Positions 16,202 through 63,424 of a stretch of 64,000 nucleotides of DNA are shown one piece after another. The stretch comes from Fimbriimonas sp. (lineage in GTDB: Bacteria; Armatimonadota; Fimbriimonadia; Fimbriimonadales; Fimbriimonadaceae). The position numbers and the translations under genes were made by a program. The notes beneath the pieces were generated by a model that saw only the letters and a program-made list of their open reading frames with translations, did no database searches and was not told the DNA's origin. Position 1 is the first letter of the stretch. Each line of letters starts with the position of its first letter. Location of the stretch: assembly GCA_031292555.1 (NCBI GenBank), contig JARLGV010000023.1, forward strand, positions 1 to 64,000. Reading direction: 5' to 3'.

Positions 16202-17854
16202 TCAGCCCTTTAGGCCGGTCGTCGCGATGCCCGACATGATATAGCGCTGGGCGATCAGAAACAGGCAGGCGACCGGGATCATCGACAGCAGTGCCCCTGC
16301 CATCAAGAGGGGGCGATTGTCCACATAAGGCGAGCGGAAGTACTCGAGGCCGAGGCTGACGGTTCGGTAATTGGGGTTGTCTAGATAGATCAGCGGTCCG
16401 AGAACGTCCTGCCAAGAGGCGACGAAGGTGAACAGCCCGACGATGATGAGGACGGGACCGCAGTTCGGCAGGATAATGCTCCGGTAGACGCGAATCGCGT
16501 TCGCTCCGTCGATCTCGGCCGACTCGTCCAGTTCACGGGGAAGGCCGAGCATGAACTGGCGGATTAAGAAGACGTTGAATGCCCCGGCCGTAAACTGCGG
16601 CACGATGAGCGGCAGGAAACTGTCGATCCAGCCGATCGACTTGTAGATCGAAAACAGCGGTATCAAGGTGACTTGCGCCGGCAGCATCAGGGTTGCCAGC
16701 AAGACGATGAACAGGGCGTTGCGCCCCTTGAAGTTCAGACGGGCGAATCCGAATGCCACGAAACTGCTGCTCAATATCTGGCCGAGCACCGCCATGACGC
16801 TGATAAACAGGCTGTTCCGCATGAAGAGCAGGAAGCCGCTCGACTTGGTGCCGATCGATGCCTCGGGTCCCTTCAGCGCCTTCTCGAAGTTGTCCCAATG
16901 TGCGCTGAAGAAGCGGATATCTTGGTGTGGAACGTCTTTTAGGACGGCGACGGAACCGAGTGGGCCCGATTTCGCATCGGTGGTGAACAGGAGTTCCGAG
17001 TAGCCGTTGTCGGTTTGCCTGACGATTTTGGCCACCACCGCCAAGTGCTTGGCCCCTATCGCGTTGACGGGCATCGCCTTGAGCTCCAGTTCTGCGGTGG
17101 ACCAGCTTGTTGGTTTCACTTTATCGTCGGCGAACCACTGGACAAGTTGGGTGGCCTTACCATCCTTGAGCTGGAGGTAGTACGCGCCTTCGTCCGATGG
17201 GGAGTGAGGACTTATTCGGTTACGGCCTTGGCCCCCTCTCCCGGTTCGTTCCTCACCGACCTCTCCCTCGGAGGGGCGAGGTGCTGGGCCGCTGTTGGCC
17301 GAGGGAGTGGCTCGACTAGGGTAGGTTCCGTTCCCAGACTCGGTAAGTGGACTCTTTCGGCTTCTATTATCTCCCCCTCTCCCGGTTCGTTCCTCACCGA
17401 CATCTCCCTCGGAGGGGCGAGGTGCTGGGCCGCTGTTGGCCGAGGGAGTGGCTCGACTAGGGTGGGTTCCGTTCCCAGACTCGGTAAGTGGGCTCTTTCG
17501 GCTTCTGTTTTCTCCCCCTCTCCCGGTTCGTTCCTCACCGACATCTCCCTCGGAGGGGCGAGGTGGTGGGCTGCTGTGTGCCGAGGGGGCGCCTTGATTT
17601 ACGTCGGCTTGAAGCAGGTCGGGCGACTGGGCTAGGCGCAGCCATTGGCTGCCGTCGGCGACGAAGATCCGTTGCTTAGTGTTGGCCTCCAAATCGACGG
17701 TTAGCCGTTCGGCGGGATACATCGAGGGCGGTTCGAGGTCCATGCCGGCTACCGATTTAAGCGAGCTGATCACGACCCAGTAGAACGGGAATAGAAACAG
17801 AGTGCAGACCATCAAGAGGACGATGTAGATCGGGAGCGGTCGGAGTCGCTTCAT
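16202..17854 (-). CDS. carbohydrate ABC transporter permease (MalG type) with repeat-bearing periplasmic loop
   Basis: 550 aa from the ATG at 17854, which overlaps the TGA of the preceding gene (ATGA), so the two are translationally coupled. TM1 is at about residues 7-27 (PIYIVLLMVCTLFLFPFYW). The C-terminal 280 residues are a standard MalG-type permease with the EAA loop (ELDESAEIDGANAIRVYRSIILP). Between TM1 and TM2 is a loop of about 250 residues, where the second permease in this window (54621-55505, 294 aa) has almost none. Residues about 85-208 of that loop come from a 141-base tandem DNA repeat. The remaining loop sequence (YYLQLKDGKATQLVQWFADD...) looks like a true small periplasmic domain. 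It should pair with the fused SBP-permease to import an oligosaccharide. Confidence 0.85.
   Translation of the reverse strand: MKRLRPLPIYIVLLMVCTLFLFPFYWVVISSLKSVAGMDLEPPSMYPAERLTVDLEANTKQRIFVADGSQWLRLAQSPDLLQADVNQGAPSAHSSPPPRPSEGDVGEERTGRGGENRSRKSPLTESGNGTHPSRATPSANSGPAPRPSEGDVGEERTGRGGDNRSRKSPLTESGNGTYPSRATPSANSGPAPRPSEGEVGEERTGRGGQGRNRISPHSPSDEGAYYLQLKDGKATQLVQWFADDKVKPTSWSTAELELKAMPVNAIGAKHLAVVAKIVRQTDNGYSELLFTTDAKSGPLGSVAVLKDVPHQDIRFFSAHWDNFEKALKGPEASIGTKSSGFLLFMRNSLFISVMAVLGQILSSSFVAFGFARLNFKGRNALFIVLLATLMLPAQVTLIPLFSIYKSIGWIDSFLPLIVPQFTAGAFNVFLIRQFMLGLPRELDESAEIDGANAIRVYRSIILPNCGPVLIIVGLFTFVASWQDVLGPLIYLDNPNYRTVSLGLEYFRSPYVDNRPLLMAGALLSMIPVACLFLIAQRYIMSGIATTGLKG
17231..17592. repeat. 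141-base tandem repeat, two full copies and one partial, inside a permease gene
   Basis: The marker CCGGTTCGTT recurs at 17241, 17382 and 17523, exactly 141 bases apart. Copies 1 and 2 differ at only a handful of bases; copy 3 diverges after about 60-70 bases. Because 141 is a multiple of three, the repeat stays in frame and encodes a 47-residue unit rich in Pro, Ser, Gly and Arg (PRPSEGDVGEERTGRGG, then SRATPSANSGPA). Base composition (runs such as CTCTCCC and GAGGGGCGAGG) resembles the spacer repeats at 51.7-52.4 kb, so it looks like an intergenic-type repeat that inserted and then expanded in a coding loop. Confidence 0.9.
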
Positions 17855-20280
17855 GCCTCTGCCTCCGAATAGACAAAGCGCCGCGCCACCCGCAACTGGA
17901 CGTAGGTGATCGCAAAAATGATCAGGAAGAGAACGATCGCGTAGCTGCACGCGACGCCCATCCGGAGATTGTTGAATGCCTGGTCGTAGATGTTCACCGA
18001 GTAGAACCGGAGCGCATCGTTCGGCGACCCAATTGTGGTCGAATCGGACGCAAAGAACAGTGCCGGCGTAAACACCTGGAACGAGCCGATGGTCGTCATT
18101 ACCACCATAAATAGGATCACCGGCGAAAGCATCGGGATCGTGATCTTCAGGAATTTGCGCGTCAGGCTTGCTCCGTCCAGGTCCGCCGCTTCATACAGGG
18201 CCGCCGGAATCTGCTTCATTCCCGCGTAATAGATGATCATCGCGCCGCCAATCCAAAACACGTTCATCAAAACAACGGACATGAATGCATGGGCCGCATC
18301 CGTCCAGTCGATCGGCCGGATATGGAGCCAGGAGAGGATGTAGTTGAGGGCGCCGTGATCCTTGTTGAGCATGTTCACCCACAGCACAGCAGTTTCCGCG
18401 CCGGTGAACAGGGCCGGGAAATAGATGATCGCCTTGAACAGATCGGTGCCGCGAATCCGCATCGTCAGCAAGCCGGCGGTGAAGAGCCCGCCGCACAGCG
18501 AGATTGGGATGACCACGATCGCATAGAGGAACGTGTTCTTGACTCCGATCAGGAATTTGCTGTCGAACAGGAGTCCGGAATAGGTCTGGAAGCCGATCCA
18601 GTGAGGCGCAGAGATCATGTTCCAGTTCGTGAATGAAAGACCCAACGCGGCGATGATCGGTCCGACGATAAAGCAAACGAGCCCAAGCAACCAAGGTGCG
18701 ATGAACAGATAACCGACCGCCTTGTGCTTTCGGTCATCCTGCGAGAGTTCGCTTCTGCGTTCACGGCCAACGCCCTTCACGTAGAAAATCGACCCGGCCA
18801 CGATGGCCAGAACCGCCAGGAAAGGCAACGCGAAGCGCACGAAGAGTCCAGGTTCGTGCGGCCTCTCCGAGTCTATTGCGGTTTGGATATCGGAATCCAA
18901 ATCCGGCAGGCGGTTGCGGATCGTCTTTTCGACAAACGCGTTCATGCCGGCGACGAAGACGCGGTAATCGTTCGGCGAAATCGCTCCGCTGTGCCGGGGA
19001 ACCGCGGCCAAGCGCGATTCGTATTCGGCGTCGAGCGTGTCCTCGACCTTGTTGACCCAGTTGTCTCGCGCGGATAGGAGATCCGTCGATGATGCGGTCA
19101 GATAGGGAGCGGCGATCTCCATATCCTTCAGATAGGCCTCGCAATTCGGGAAGCCGAAAGCGTTGTGCACGAGAGCGTCGGTCGCCGTCCGAATAGACGG
19201 GATACCTTTCAACGTAGCCGTCTGCTGGCGCTGGATACTCAGCGAAGTCATGAACTCCAGAAGTTTCCAGGCTTCCTTCGGGTGCTTGGAATGCGAGTAG
19301 ATCGCCAAGGAATTGACGCTGATCATCGTACGAGAGCCGGGGCCGCGCGGCATGGGGGTGATTCCGAAGTGGACACCGCCCTCCCTCAACTGCTTGAGCG
19401 CCCACGGTCCGGTGGTTCCCATCGCGAATTTAGGGGAAATCAGGATTGTGTCGGCATTGTTCGTAAACGCTCCGTCGGCGATCGGTTTTTGGCCGAGCGT
19501 GGTTCGATCGCCATATTGAGACTGGAAGATGGCGATCAGGGCCTTCGCGAGCGGCTCATTGCCGCGAACGGTGCTCCGGGTCGGATTCACCGGTCGATCG
19601 GTGAAGTCTCCGCCGTACATCGTTGCCATCGTCAGGTCCCAGTTCTGGGCCGCCGCCATCCCGTATTGGGCAAAGGAGCCATCGGGCTTCCTTAGCGTCA
19701 ACCGGCGGGAGAGCGACTGAAACTGCTCCCACGTCATGGCCCGGTCTTCGCGGGGCCAATCTTGTTTCCCGATTCCGCTTTGCTCCAGCAGGTCGGTCGA
19801 GTAGATCAGACACCAGCTTGCGATATCGGTGGGAAGGGCGAACAGGCTGCCGTTCCAACGGCAATTCGCGAGTGCTTGGGGAAAGAAGTCGGAAAACGAA
19901 AATCCGCTTTCCTTTGCCAGGCCGTCGAGAGGCATCAGAGCTCCGCGCGCGGCCCAGATCCCGAAGCTCCCGCTGTAGAACTCCATGACGTCCGGTGCGA
20001 GGCCGGATGCCATCTGGGTCTGAACCTTCGCCCAGTATTGCCCCCAGGGATATACGGATACGTCGAGGCGTACTTCGGGATGCTCATGGACGAACGCATT
20101 GCAGAACCTCCTGGCGTCGGTTACCTCGTTCGCTCCACCCCACATCGAGTACCGAATGGTCGTCTTGGGGCCCTGGTAGGTTGTGTTCTCGACGATCTCA
20201 GCGCGAGCAAGCGTCGCTGCAAGCGCAACGCAAATACCGGCCAAGCGGACCATGCAATGCAGGGCCATTTCTACAATCAT
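17851..20280 (-). CDS. ABC transporter solute-binding protein fused to MalF-type permease
   Basis: About 809 aa. Several in-frame ATGs exist (20325, 20280, 20268, 20253); I use 20280, and all of the later ones leave the signal sequence MVRLAGICVALAATLARA. Residues up to about 440 are a family-1 sugar-binding protein (TTIRYSMWGGANEV, MASGLAPDVMEFYSG, SKHPKEAWKLLEFM). A hydrophobic segment (FALPFLAVLAIVAGSIFYV) then leads into a complete MalF-type permease: AVGYLFIAPWLLGLVCFIVG and an EAA motif YEAADLDGASLTRKFLKITIPML. Tethering the binding protein to the translocator means it cannot diffuse. No ATPase gene is nearby. The next gene overlaps by ATGA. The same fusion recurs at 55.5-57.9 kb. Confidence 0.88.
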   Translation of the reverse strand: MIVEMALHCMVRLAGICVALAATLARAEIVENTTYQGPKTTIRYSMWGGANEVTDARRFCNAFVHEHPEVRLDVSVYPWGQYWAKVQTQMASGLAPDVMEFYSGSFGIWAARGALMPLDGLAKESGFSFSDFFPQALANCRWNGSLFALPTDIASWCLIYSTDLLEQSGIGKQDWPREDRAMTWEQFQSLSRRLTLRKPDGSFAQYGMAAAQNWDLTMATMYGGDFTDRPVNPTRSTVRGNEPLAKALIAIFQSQYGDRTTLGQKPIADGAFTNNADTILISPKFAMGTTGPWALKQLREGGVHFGITPMPRGPGSRTMISVNSLAIYSHSKHPKEAWKLLEFMTSLSIQRQQTATLKGIPSIRTATDALVHNAFGFPNCEAYLKDMEIAAPYLTASSTDLLSARDNWVNKVEDTLDAEYESRLAAVPRHSGAISPNDYRVFVAGMNAFVEKTIRNRLPDLDSDIQTAIDSERPHEPGLFVRFALPFLAVLAIVAGSIFYVKGVGRERRSELSQDDRKHKAVGYLFIAPWLLGLVCFIVGPIIAALGLSFTNWNMISAPHWIGFQTYSGLLFDSKFLIGVKNTFLYAIVVIPISLCGGLFTAGLLTMRIRGTDLFKAIIYFPALFTGAETAVLWVNMLNKDHGALNYILSWLHIRPIDWTDAAHAFMSVVLMNVFWIGGAMIIYYAGMKQIPAALYEAADLDGASLTRKFLKITIPMLSPVILFMVVMTTIGSFQVFTPALFFASDSTTIGSPNDALRFYSVNIYDQAFNNLRMGVACSYAIVLFLIIFAITYVQLRVARRFVYSEAEA

Positions 20281-20427
20281 CGCACATCTCTGAAGGTGGC
20301 AGTGAGGCATTGTTCCACACTGCATTTCGACTTCATCTGACAGGCATCCGGTGTTGTCGATGGCGTCGAAACGGCGCCCTGACCCTCGCTCTGCGGTCAG
20401 CCCCTAAACCCACTTGGGGGAACAGCT

Positions 20428-51737: not shown

Positions 51738-52320
51738 AAATGGCGAGGGAGCGCATCACTCGGCTGTGGCGAACCCGTAGGTTGGCTGGGAGTCGGTAGT
51801 CGCGCTCCCTCGCCCCCCGCGAAGCGAACAGGGGGTAGAGGGTGGGGAGAGGGGGATTCAGTAAGCCGCCGACGCAGTCGGAATTCCTTGATCCAATACA
51901 GTCTCTTCGATGGCACGGACCTTTCTCAGGAGGCGGCGGAATGAAATTGGAGCCAGGGGCGCGTTTCCTGAAAACCTCCCTCACCCCACCCTCTCCCTCC
52001 TCGGAAGGAAGGCGAGGGAGCGCGACCGTCCGGTCGCAGCCCACCTCCGGGTTGGCACGAGACCTGTACTGACGTTCCCTCGCCCCCAGCGAAGCGAACA
52101 GGGGGTAGAGGGCGGGGAGAGGGGGAAAACCATAAGCCGCCGACGAAGTCGGAAGTCCAATTCTCATTCGGCCCCATCATTGGAACTGACTGGCTAGAGA
52201 GCACCGAAATGTAATGGTCTGGGCAGAAATGATGAGCCAGGGGCGCGACTGCGGAAACCACCCTCCCCTCTCCCTCCTCGGAAGGAAGGCGAGGGAACCG
52301 GACTCCCGGCCGTTGACGTC
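51738..52320. repeat. intergenic repeat element, two copies with hairpin structure
   Basis: Two copies of a block are offset by 270-283 bases. Shared parts: GCGAAGCGAACAGGGGGTAG (51819 and 52089), GCCGCCGACG..GTCGG (about 51864 and 52136), GAGCCAGGGGCGCG (51950 and 52233) and CTCGGAAGGAAGGCGAGGG (about 52000 and 52277). The parts form inverted repeats: CGAGGGAGCGC (51738-51748) with GCGCTCCCTCG (51802-51812), and the half near 51980-52020 with the half near 52070-52120. The latter would fold into a long imperfect stem. No gene or transposase is present. It looks like a mobile non-coding (MITE/REP-like) element. The run to 52409 holds only this element and flanking spacer. Confidence 0.75.
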
Positions 52321-60565: not shown

Positions 60566-63424
60566 ATGTCGATGATCGCGTTCATTTCGCTATCCATGTT
60601 GGCCCTCGCCCGATCGGGCGACTCCCACCTCGCCCAAAACTTAGTTCCCAATCCCCATTTCGCCATCGGCGATTCGGTGCCGGATGGCTGGACCTCGATT
60701 TATACCGCCAAAGGCAAGCTGGTGGCTGGTCGCGACACGAAGATCTTTGTGCATCCGCCCGCGTCACTCTCCTTAACCGGGACAACCGACGACGCGGACG
60801 GCAACGTTAGTGCCGAGCTTCCCGACGTCTCGGGGAAGACCCTTACGATCGATGGGTCGGTGCGTTGCGGCGGCGGAGTGACCGCTGCGCAGATCGCGCT
60901 CTTTCTGCAGGACGAGAGCTACAAGCAACTCGAATACCGACCGCTCGTCGATCGGTTCGGCTTCAAAGACGGAGTATGGACTCAGTTCCACGTTACGGCA
61001 GAGGTGCCGGCGAACGCCAAGCACGCCCGCCTGATTCTGTTGGAAGGCGGAAAGGGAACCGTATGGCTTGGCGAGATATCGGTCACTGATGCAGGCGCCG
61101 AGACGAAACGTGCCACCGCAACCCTCACGCCTCCGACGGTCCCGCCGACCGTGCGGACCGCCCAATCGCCGCGGCTGACCTCCATTGGCGCGATCGCGCC
61201 CGATGTCCTCGACATCCTCATCCAGGACGGACGCACGACTCCCAGTTCGATGACCGTCTATGCACCGAAGCCGGGTGATGAGCGGCTGCCCAAGGGGCAT
61301 CAACAGATTCTAAAGCGAAACGGCCAGGAGATCGGCTGGCTCATTGGCGCTCGGCACGATCATCTCGTATCCTACGAGCAACTGGTGGGCGACCCTCTCC
61401 AACCGGAATACGCCGGATACCTTGGGACCTATCGCGTATCTTCGCCCGACGATCTGGATTACCAGGGCGGCAAACAGGCGACTGCGCTCTTCCGCAAGAG
61501 CAAACCGAACGACTGGGAGATACCGCGCCAGCGATTTGCTTGGGAGCACCGGATCTACCTGAAGCTGCCGAGCCCACTGAAAGAAGGAAAGACCTACACC
61601 GTCGATTTCGGGAAGCTCAACGTTCAGCCTGGGACCTCGACGTTTGTCTTCCGACCAGCCGCTCAGGCTTCCGAGGCCATACATGTCAGTCAGGTCGGAT
61701 ACCGGCCAGATGACCCGTTCAAGCGCGCGTATCTCTCCTGCTGGAGAGGAACCGGCGGCGGTCAGGAATACGATCGGCCGATGACGTTCCGTATCGTCGA
61801 TGCCTCAACCGGCGCCACCGCACTTTCTGGGCCGGTTCGCTTGGGGAAATCGGCGTCGGAGCCCGAGCACATGGTTCGCGAAGAGAACTTCGTGAGAGCG
61901 GACGTGTATTGGATGGACTTCACCAGACTGACGAAGCCGGGCACCTATCGCGTCGTTGTCGACGGAGTCGGCTGCTCCTATCCGTTCCCGATCGCTGCCG
62001 ATGTCTGGGACCAAGCGTTCAAGGTGCAAATGCGCGGATTGGTGAACGAGCGGGCTGGAATCGCCCTGAAGCCGCCCTATGCCGATTTTGTGCGTCCGCC
62101 CGACGAAATGCCCAACGAGGGCCAGCAGATCACGGAATCGACATCCAGCGTTCTCAACGGCCAAGAGGCTTGGACCGCGCTGGTCAAGGGTGATACCGGC
62201 CAGCCGGTCAAAGGCGCCTACGGCGGATACCACGATGCGGGCGACTGGAACCCGAGGCGGGCAACCCATCTCAAGGTGACGATGGCGCATCTGGAAATGC
62301 TGGATATCTTCCCCGACCACTTTGCCAAGATGAGGCTCGGGCTGCCGGATTCGTCGAATCTGCCGGACGTACTGCAGGAGGCGCTGTGGGAGATCGATCT
62401 CTTTCGGCGACTCCAGAAGCCGGATGGAGGGGTCCCGTTCGGCCTGGAGACGGACGGCGATCCGGAGGACGGCGATGTCAGTTGGCTGACGACGATGCAC
62501 CTCTATGAGTTCGCTCCCGACTGCTATAGCTCGTGGACGTACGCTTCGGCGGCCGCCCGGGCAGCGAGGATCATGTCTCGATACGATGCGGCGAAGTCAC
62601 GGGGCTACGCAGCTTCAGCCGTGAAGGCAATGGAGTGGGGCGAAGCCCACATGGCTGAGGAGCGGCCAAAGCTGACATGGGAGATGACGGACGCTCGGAA
62701 CCTGGCCGCCGTCGAGATCTACTGGTTAACCCACGATCCGAAGTGGCACGAGGTGTTTCTTCAGGACACGTTGCTCAAGACATCTCGTCCGTATCTGTTC
62801 CAGTATGGAAAGGCAGTGCAACGCGATGCCGCCTTCGTCTATGCCCGGTTGCCTCAGGGGCTTGGAGAAGCAACGTATAAGCAGAACGCAGTTGACGGCC
62901 TGGAGATCATGGCGAAGAAATGTCTGGAGTACGCGACTGGCAACGCGTTCAACCTCACTAACTGTGATAAGGGACGGCCCCTAGGCTTTGCGTTCTATAC
63001 CGAAGCAGACGCAACCGATCTGTGCCGGGCGCACTTCTTTACTCACAAGTCTGAGTATCTGGCAGGAATCGTCACCGCATGTCAGTTCGCGACCGGAGCC
63101 AACCCGTCGAACCTGGTCTATACGACTGGCCTGGGCGCCAATCCGATCCAGCATCCGCTGCTGCTCGACAGCCGGCGTACCGGCCAGCCAGCACCGAAAG
63201 GCCTGACGGTCTTCGGTCCTATCGACTACGTTCAGTTCCACGACGACGGCACGATCTGGCCGATGAAATTCTTCCTCAACCAGCAGTGCATCCCGCCATC
63301 GAATCAGTGGCCGATCCCCGAGGCGTATTTCGACATCTACCTGTACCCGATCATCAACGAGTTCACCGTCGATACTTGGGCGGGCAATCTCTATGCATGG
63401 GGGTACCTGGCAGCGCGAAAGTAG
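60566..63424 (+). CDS. GH9 family cellulase/glucanase, exported
   Basis: 952 aa from the ATG at 60566; the longer frame from 60395 runs through the operator region and is not coding. MIAFISLSMLALARSGDS is a signal sequence. An N-terminal carbohydrate-binding-like jellyroll (NLVPNPHFAIGDSVPDGWTS) and linker precede the CelD-type Ig domain (IHVSQVGYRPDDPFKRAYLS) at about 370-470. The (alpha/alpha)6 barrel has GGYHDAGDWNPR with catalytic-base Asp557/Asp560 and ends with the proton donor E932 in IINEFTVD. GH9 enzymes cleave beta-1,4-glucan by inversion. With GH16 and the beta-helix protein it forms a glucan-degrading set under one LacI operator. Confidence 0.9.
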   Translation: MSMIAFISLSMLALARSGDSHLAQNLVPNPHFAIGDSVPDGWTSIYTAKGKLVAGRDTKIFVHPPASLSLTGTTDDADGNVSAELPDVSGKTLTIDGSVRCGGGVTAAQIALFLQDESYKQLEYRPLVDRFGFKDGVWTQFHVTAEVPANAKHARLILLEGGKGTVWLGEISVTDAGAETKRATATLTPPTVPPTVRTAQSPRLTSIGAIAPDVLDILIQDGRTTPSSMTVYAPKPGDERLPKGHQQILKRNGQEIGWLIGARHDHLVSYEQLVGDPLQPEYAGYLGTYRVSSPDDLDYQGGKQATALFRKSKPNDWEIPRQRFAWEHRIYLKLPSPLKEGKTYTVDFGKLNVQPGTSTFVFRPAAQASEAIHVSQVGYRPDDPFKRAYLSCWRGTGGGQEYDRPMTFRIVDASTGATALSGPVRLGKSASEPEHMVREENFVRADVYWMDFTRLTKPGTYRVVVDGVGCSYPFPIAADVWDQAFKVQMRGLVNERAGIALKPPYADFVRPPDEMPNEGQQITESTSSVLNGQEAWTALVKGDTGQPVKGAYGGYHDAGDWNPRRATHLKVTMAHLEMLDIFPDHFAKMRLGLPDSSNLPDVLQEALWEIDLFRRLQKPDGGVPFGLETDGDPEDGDVSWLTTMHLYEFAPDCYSSWTYASAAARAARIMSRYDAAKSRGYAASAVKAMEWGEAHMAEERPKLTWEMTDARNLAAVEIYWLTHDPKWHEVFLQDTLLKTSRPYLFQYGKAVQRDAAFVYARLPQGLGEATYKQNAVDGLEIMAKKCLEYATGNAFNLTNCDKGRPLGFAFYTEADATDLCRAHFFTHKSEYLAGIVTACQFATGANPSNLVYTTGLGANPIQHPLLLDSRRTGQPAPKGLTVFGPIDYVQFHDDGTIWPMKFFLNQQCIPPSNQWPIPEAYFDIYLYPIINEFTVDTWAGNLYAWGYLAARK

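Follow-up and report, generated by a model that had tools for sequence, protein, structure and literature searches.

An in-frame tandem array in a permease gene

On the minus strand of the window (the whole 64-kb stretch of Fimbriimonas DNA analysed here), positions 16202–17854 hold a gene for an ABC transporter permease (BPD_transp_1, PF00528, E 3.1e-15), whose likely start by ORF analysis is the ATG at 17854, giving a protein of 550 residues. The 5' end of this ORF overlaps the 3' end of an 824-residue ORF directly upstream (17851–20325, minus strand), which combines an extracellular solute-binding protein with an ABC permease domain. Within the permease gene, TRF reported one array of period 141 at 17232–17587 (score 649, 2.5 copies, 95% matches, 0% indels); elsewhere in the window it found just one further array, a weak one (score 58). 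A repeat search placed copies in register at 17208–17348, 17349–17489 (91%) and 17490–17630 (70%). The period equals 3 × 47, the permease ORF is open across all copies, and the first two copies differ at 8 of 47 codons, five of these differences changing the residue. Taken together, TRF, the repeat search and the ORF confirm the original prediction of a 141-bp tandem repeat, present in frame as two full copies and a partial third. Its predicted size of about 120 residues was slightly too small: the stretch comes to 405 bp, or 135 codons (∼17191–17595).

Empty sites in related permeases

Whole-genome and public-contig searches yielded four orthologues (71% identity for L019, 70% for L020, 65% for L021 and 65% for L038, a Fimbriimonadaceae MAG), which align with the permease from its first transmembrane segment to its end and lack the repeat region only. 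Each of them has six residues between a conserved LL (VL in L038) and GAY, and the window permease reads LL-QADVNQ, then the insert, then GAYYLQ, such that its flanks without the insert amount to the same six residues. Because four orthologues aligned end to end lack exactly this stretch, it is, as judged from the alignments, a late insertion into the permease gene. The suspected insertion was thus borne out by sites that are empty at precisely this point, and it also withstood the comparison proposed against it, namely that orthologues might carry the same 47-residue units: the four compared here are without them, and none were seen among the matches.

Borders and parts of the insert

The insert (17191–17595, minus strand, one flanking AAGGCGC counted) is bordered by a 7-bp direct repeat, with AAGGCGC at 17589–17595 on the left (5' on the coding strand) and again at 17184–17190 on the right, 405 bp apart and hence at a multiple of three. 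This pair is a weak candidate for a target duplication, because when the 30-nt flanks were shuffled a direct repeat this long and nearly in the right register arose in ∼3% of trials.

Between these borders, palindromic cores of ∼52 nt alternate with 89-bp spacers. We described the core by a covariance model, R1, which was built from 13 copies, seeded partly from the permease locus, and may lump related subfamilies. In coding order, core copy 1 (17512–17563; 69.2 bits, E 2.3e-21, at a locus that is itself among the R1 seeds) is followed by spacer 1 (17423–17511), core copy 2 (17371–17422; 69.2 bits), spacer 2 (17282–17370), which is near-identical to spacer 1, and core copy 3 (17230–17281; 71.5 bits), which belongs to the partial unit and after which 39 bp of different sequence lead to the right border. 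All of these parts are given on the minus strand.

The encoded residues are unlike those of the rest of the permease: 77% are P, S, G, R, E, N or D and 11% are hydrophobic, as opposed to 35% and 52% elsewhere in the protein. Predicted membrane helices 1 and 2 enclose the insert, which the usual topology for permeases of this type would place in the periplasm, where the predicted peptide may be tolerated as a flexible or disordered loop. A structure prediction from three sequences was of too low quality to be of use (mean pLDDT 33, pTM 0.20); in this same poor model the insert had the lowest pLDDT and no secondary structure.

A dispersed core with two hairpins

A search of the own genome with the whole 141-bp unit returned, apart from the local copies, a single partial match of 47 bp (C106:96063), so the unit as such is not dispersed, and the 89-bp spacers occur nowhere else in the own genome or in 19 congeners. 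Parts of the unit, by contrast, match many places in congeners, and alignment of these matches delimits the ∼52-nt core, composed of hairpin 1 (of the type CCTCTCC-loop-GGAGAGG), hairpin 2 (CGGT...ACCG, with a conserved GA/GA internal loop closed by G-C) and then GGGNGAGG. Conservation among the relatives' copies ends at the borders of this core. The proposed kinship to repeats elsewhere is therefore right for the core, which is dispersed in the genome and in relatives, and wrong for the spacer, which is confined to the locus, and for the unit as a whole.

In the own genome, R1 found four strong copies, three of them in the permease insert, as well as weaker ones, several of which lie in arrays of ∼245–270 bp, some at contig ends. 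Within the genus, matches at E≤1 numbered 93 in G002, 78 in G006, 77 in G010 and 33 in G003. Across the family, 28 of 61 genomes had matches at E≤1e-3 (up to 95 per genome; 75 in G082), and across the phylum, under stricter filters, 15 of 151 had matches at E≤1e-6. The distribution across Fimbriimonadaceae is thus patchy, with genomes carrying anywhere from 0 to ∼95 copies, and genomes that contributed no seeds (G096, G082, G077 and G029) reach up to 54 bits. Cores have inverted neighbours in regions L125, L128, L131, L138–L140, L205–L207, L209–L213 and L217.

Among 69 aligned R1 matches, 91.4% of the cells assigned to stems were paired, compared to 45–50% when the partners were slid, and 41 cells showed changes on both sides, although this statistic is biased towards structure because the alignment was fitted to R1 and includes the seeds. 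On this evidence from covariation, we describe the core as two hairpins. Shuffled sequences folded just as well as the 141-bp unit when folding of single-strand DNA was predicted, and the structural argument is based on covariation instead. The element had no match in Rfam and the repeat none in plasmids, and PADLOC returned nothing.

In-frame copies in conserved genes of relatives

We inspected 100 regions around high-scoring copies, picked by score and not by position, which together with one region of the own genome contain 155 copies; copies within long frames were checked with Pfam, and unsupported shadow frames in the GC-rich relatives were left uncounted. Beside the window permease, at least 11 Pfam-supported insertions in unrelated protein genes are in frame, a minimum from those regions that were annotated and not a census. 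The hosts are alaS (an inverted pair), trmD and a class II ribonucleotide reductase gene in G002; a THUMP-like protein in G010, for which the evidence is weaker, with Pfam on one side only; and, in G096, alaS, mazG, ubiE and genes for an epimerase/DUF1731 protein, a phage-integrase-family recombinase, a family 2 glycosyltransferase and a DUF5107 protein.

Most of the peptides encoded by the core are of two kinds, a sense form '(S)P..GEVGER..PGEG' and an antisense form '..LTDLSPKGRG'; in genes for unrelated proteins a single DNA core appears in both orientations and in various phases, and it occurs between genes as well. The core is open in 3.4–4.7 of the six frames, compared to 3.2–4.4 in shuffled sequences, at most a slight excess.

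The alaS gene was compared in 20 genomes of the genus and in G096. The insert of G096 follows EMFYW, those of G002 and G010 lie in another variable loop, and G012 carries SPSPQRGEGRGEG at a third place, while most other species in the alignment are without inserts. As the sites differ between species, these insertions are independent. Variable loops of alaS have taken palindromic inserts at no fewer than three sites across species (L186, L128, L254, L255 and L261).

Origin of the permease array

Insertion of a dispersed palindromic element, followed by tandem duplication in place, very probably explains the array. A short, non-coding, hairpin-forming repeat of the REP/RPE type would have entered the gene behind the first transmembrane segment, probably as a composite of two ∼52-nt cores and a spacer, with a length and phase that keep the frame open, so that it could be tolerated as an additional stretch of Pro, Ser, Gly and charged residues. 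One round of slippage or recombination involving the directly repeated cores would then have produced core-spacer-core-spacer-core with its period of 141. The two spacers are near-identical and absent elsewhere, and therefore the second appears to have been duplicated in place, the array growing after insertion. Relatives have cores in same-orientation pairs or triplets, spaced by 61–165 bp (L180, L196, L207 and L210), which are a plausible starting state of the form core-spacer-core. The family itself is patchily spread, and its in-frame entry into other genes has recurred. We infer both the transposition-like nature of the insertion and the order of events; that the own genome has only one other strong core copy counts against this reading.

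Four other explanations deserve consideration. The element could be a REP moved by a RAYT (Y1_Tnp) transposase, that is, a REPtron system. Y1_Tnp matches are indeed common in several element-rich genomes (13 in G002, 26 in G010 and 12 in G096), and the own genome has two such genes. However, the element lay near only one of 30 Y1_Tnp loci scanned with ∼1.5 kb of flank, the GTAG tag is absent from the core ends, and G006 and G082, with 78 and 75 element matches, have no Y1_Tnp match at all, which suggests that the element can do without a RAYT in the same genome. We thus give RAYT-driven movement only a small chance of being correct.

Slippage or duplication confined to the coding sequence of the permease itself, with no mobile-type element involved, would account for a spacer that is not dispersed, and tandem duplication has certainly taken part. 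Yet the orthologues hold no possible seed sequence at the site, and the core matches copies at many places in the own and other genomes, which makes purely local growth quite improbable.

An artefact or collapsed repeat of the 140-contig draft assembly might be suspected from the palindrome-rich arrays at several of its contig ends, but the copies differ at scattered sites, between single-copy flanks and in an unbroken frame, and we regard such an error as very improbable. Finally, an old functional permease repeat, lost by the compared orthologues, would fit the exact periods and the frame kept in all copies, but is extremely improbable in light of the four genus and family orthologues without it and of a core whose copies in genes for unrelated proteins run in either orientation and in more than one phase, and which lies between genes too.

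Relation to known repeats

The insertion-and-duplication reading of the permease array invites comparison with three groups of small bacterial repeats. Rickettsia RPEs have been found in 19 reading frames, and a guanylate kinase with an RPE is still active (PMC2229807). Akin to these (PMC2229807, PMC10969869, PMC3767692), the Fimbriimonadaceae elements are small dispersed palindromes found between genes and in frame in unrelated conserved genes, tRNA-related enzymes are among the hosts, and a dedicated transposase is not known. They differ in belonging to another phylum and having another sequence, in their core of ∼52 nt as opposed to 100–150 bp for RPEs, and in that one insert has grown into a 141-bp tandem array.

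GTAG/CGTC REPs (PMC3733652) are likewise short stem-loops, patchy among species and often arranged as closely spaced inverted pairs or groups; intragenic tagged REPs occur in several species (PMC3733652), and some such copies give in-frame peptides. Here, in contrast, the core has two hairpins instead of one and carries no tag (GTAG/CGTC near the core ends was at or below chance in G002, G010, G096 and G082), and no RAYT association was found across the 30 loci and the two element-rich genomes described above. Because the tag is missing and a RAYT link is not supported, we keep the element out of the tagged REP superfamilies. ERIC and the Correia/NEMIS MITEs (PMC2229807, PMC10969869) resemble it as small non-autonomous repeats whose transcripts form stem-loops, with in-frame fusions to ORFs in some cases, and MITE fusions to ORFs are known (PMC10969869); they differ from it in that matching IS ends were not identified here and a target duplication is weakly supported.

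By analogy, then, the element works like an RPE, a likeness claimed for its behaviour only. It can also be called a REP in the broad sense, as a dispersed short palindromic stem-loop with up to ∼95 matches per genome and covarying pairs, found in BIME-like close inverted pairs and groups. In-frame palindromic insertion is a kind of event that is already known; what adds interest is that it recurs in housekeeping genes of this lineage, on which we found no earlier report. A literature search that reached few subscription papers found no paper on REPs in Armatimonadetes, which is no proof of novelty.

In-frame palindromic repeats in conserved genes are best known from Rickettsia, an intracellular bacterium with a reduced genome, and here they occur in another phylum, where alaS was hit independently in several species and one case, the permease, grew to a 47-residue tandem repeat. 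This offers a comparative system for how non-coding repeats become protein sequence and how well they are tolerated. A bolder proposal would be that Fimbriimonadaceae harbour an active palindromic element, moved by something other than a RAYT, which enters essential genes in frame and grows into low-complexity segments of variable copy number. We consider this doubtful; if true, it would amount to a route from non-coding selfish DNA to new disordered protein regions.

Other copies in the same genome

The other strong copy of the own genome (L095 1501–1553, corresponding to G000 C106:96056–96108) lies between two tandem paralogous M28-peptidase-like genes, ∼20 nt past the end of the first. Within the window, positions 61728–61771 give a weak R1 match (16.5 bits, E 0.0012), and 51769–52303 hold a diverged array, spaced at ∼270 bp, whose two units are GC-rich palindromes of another sort. 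Arrays similar to the latter lie at the ends of contigs C73, C31, C75 and C58 and are probably what breaks the assembly there.
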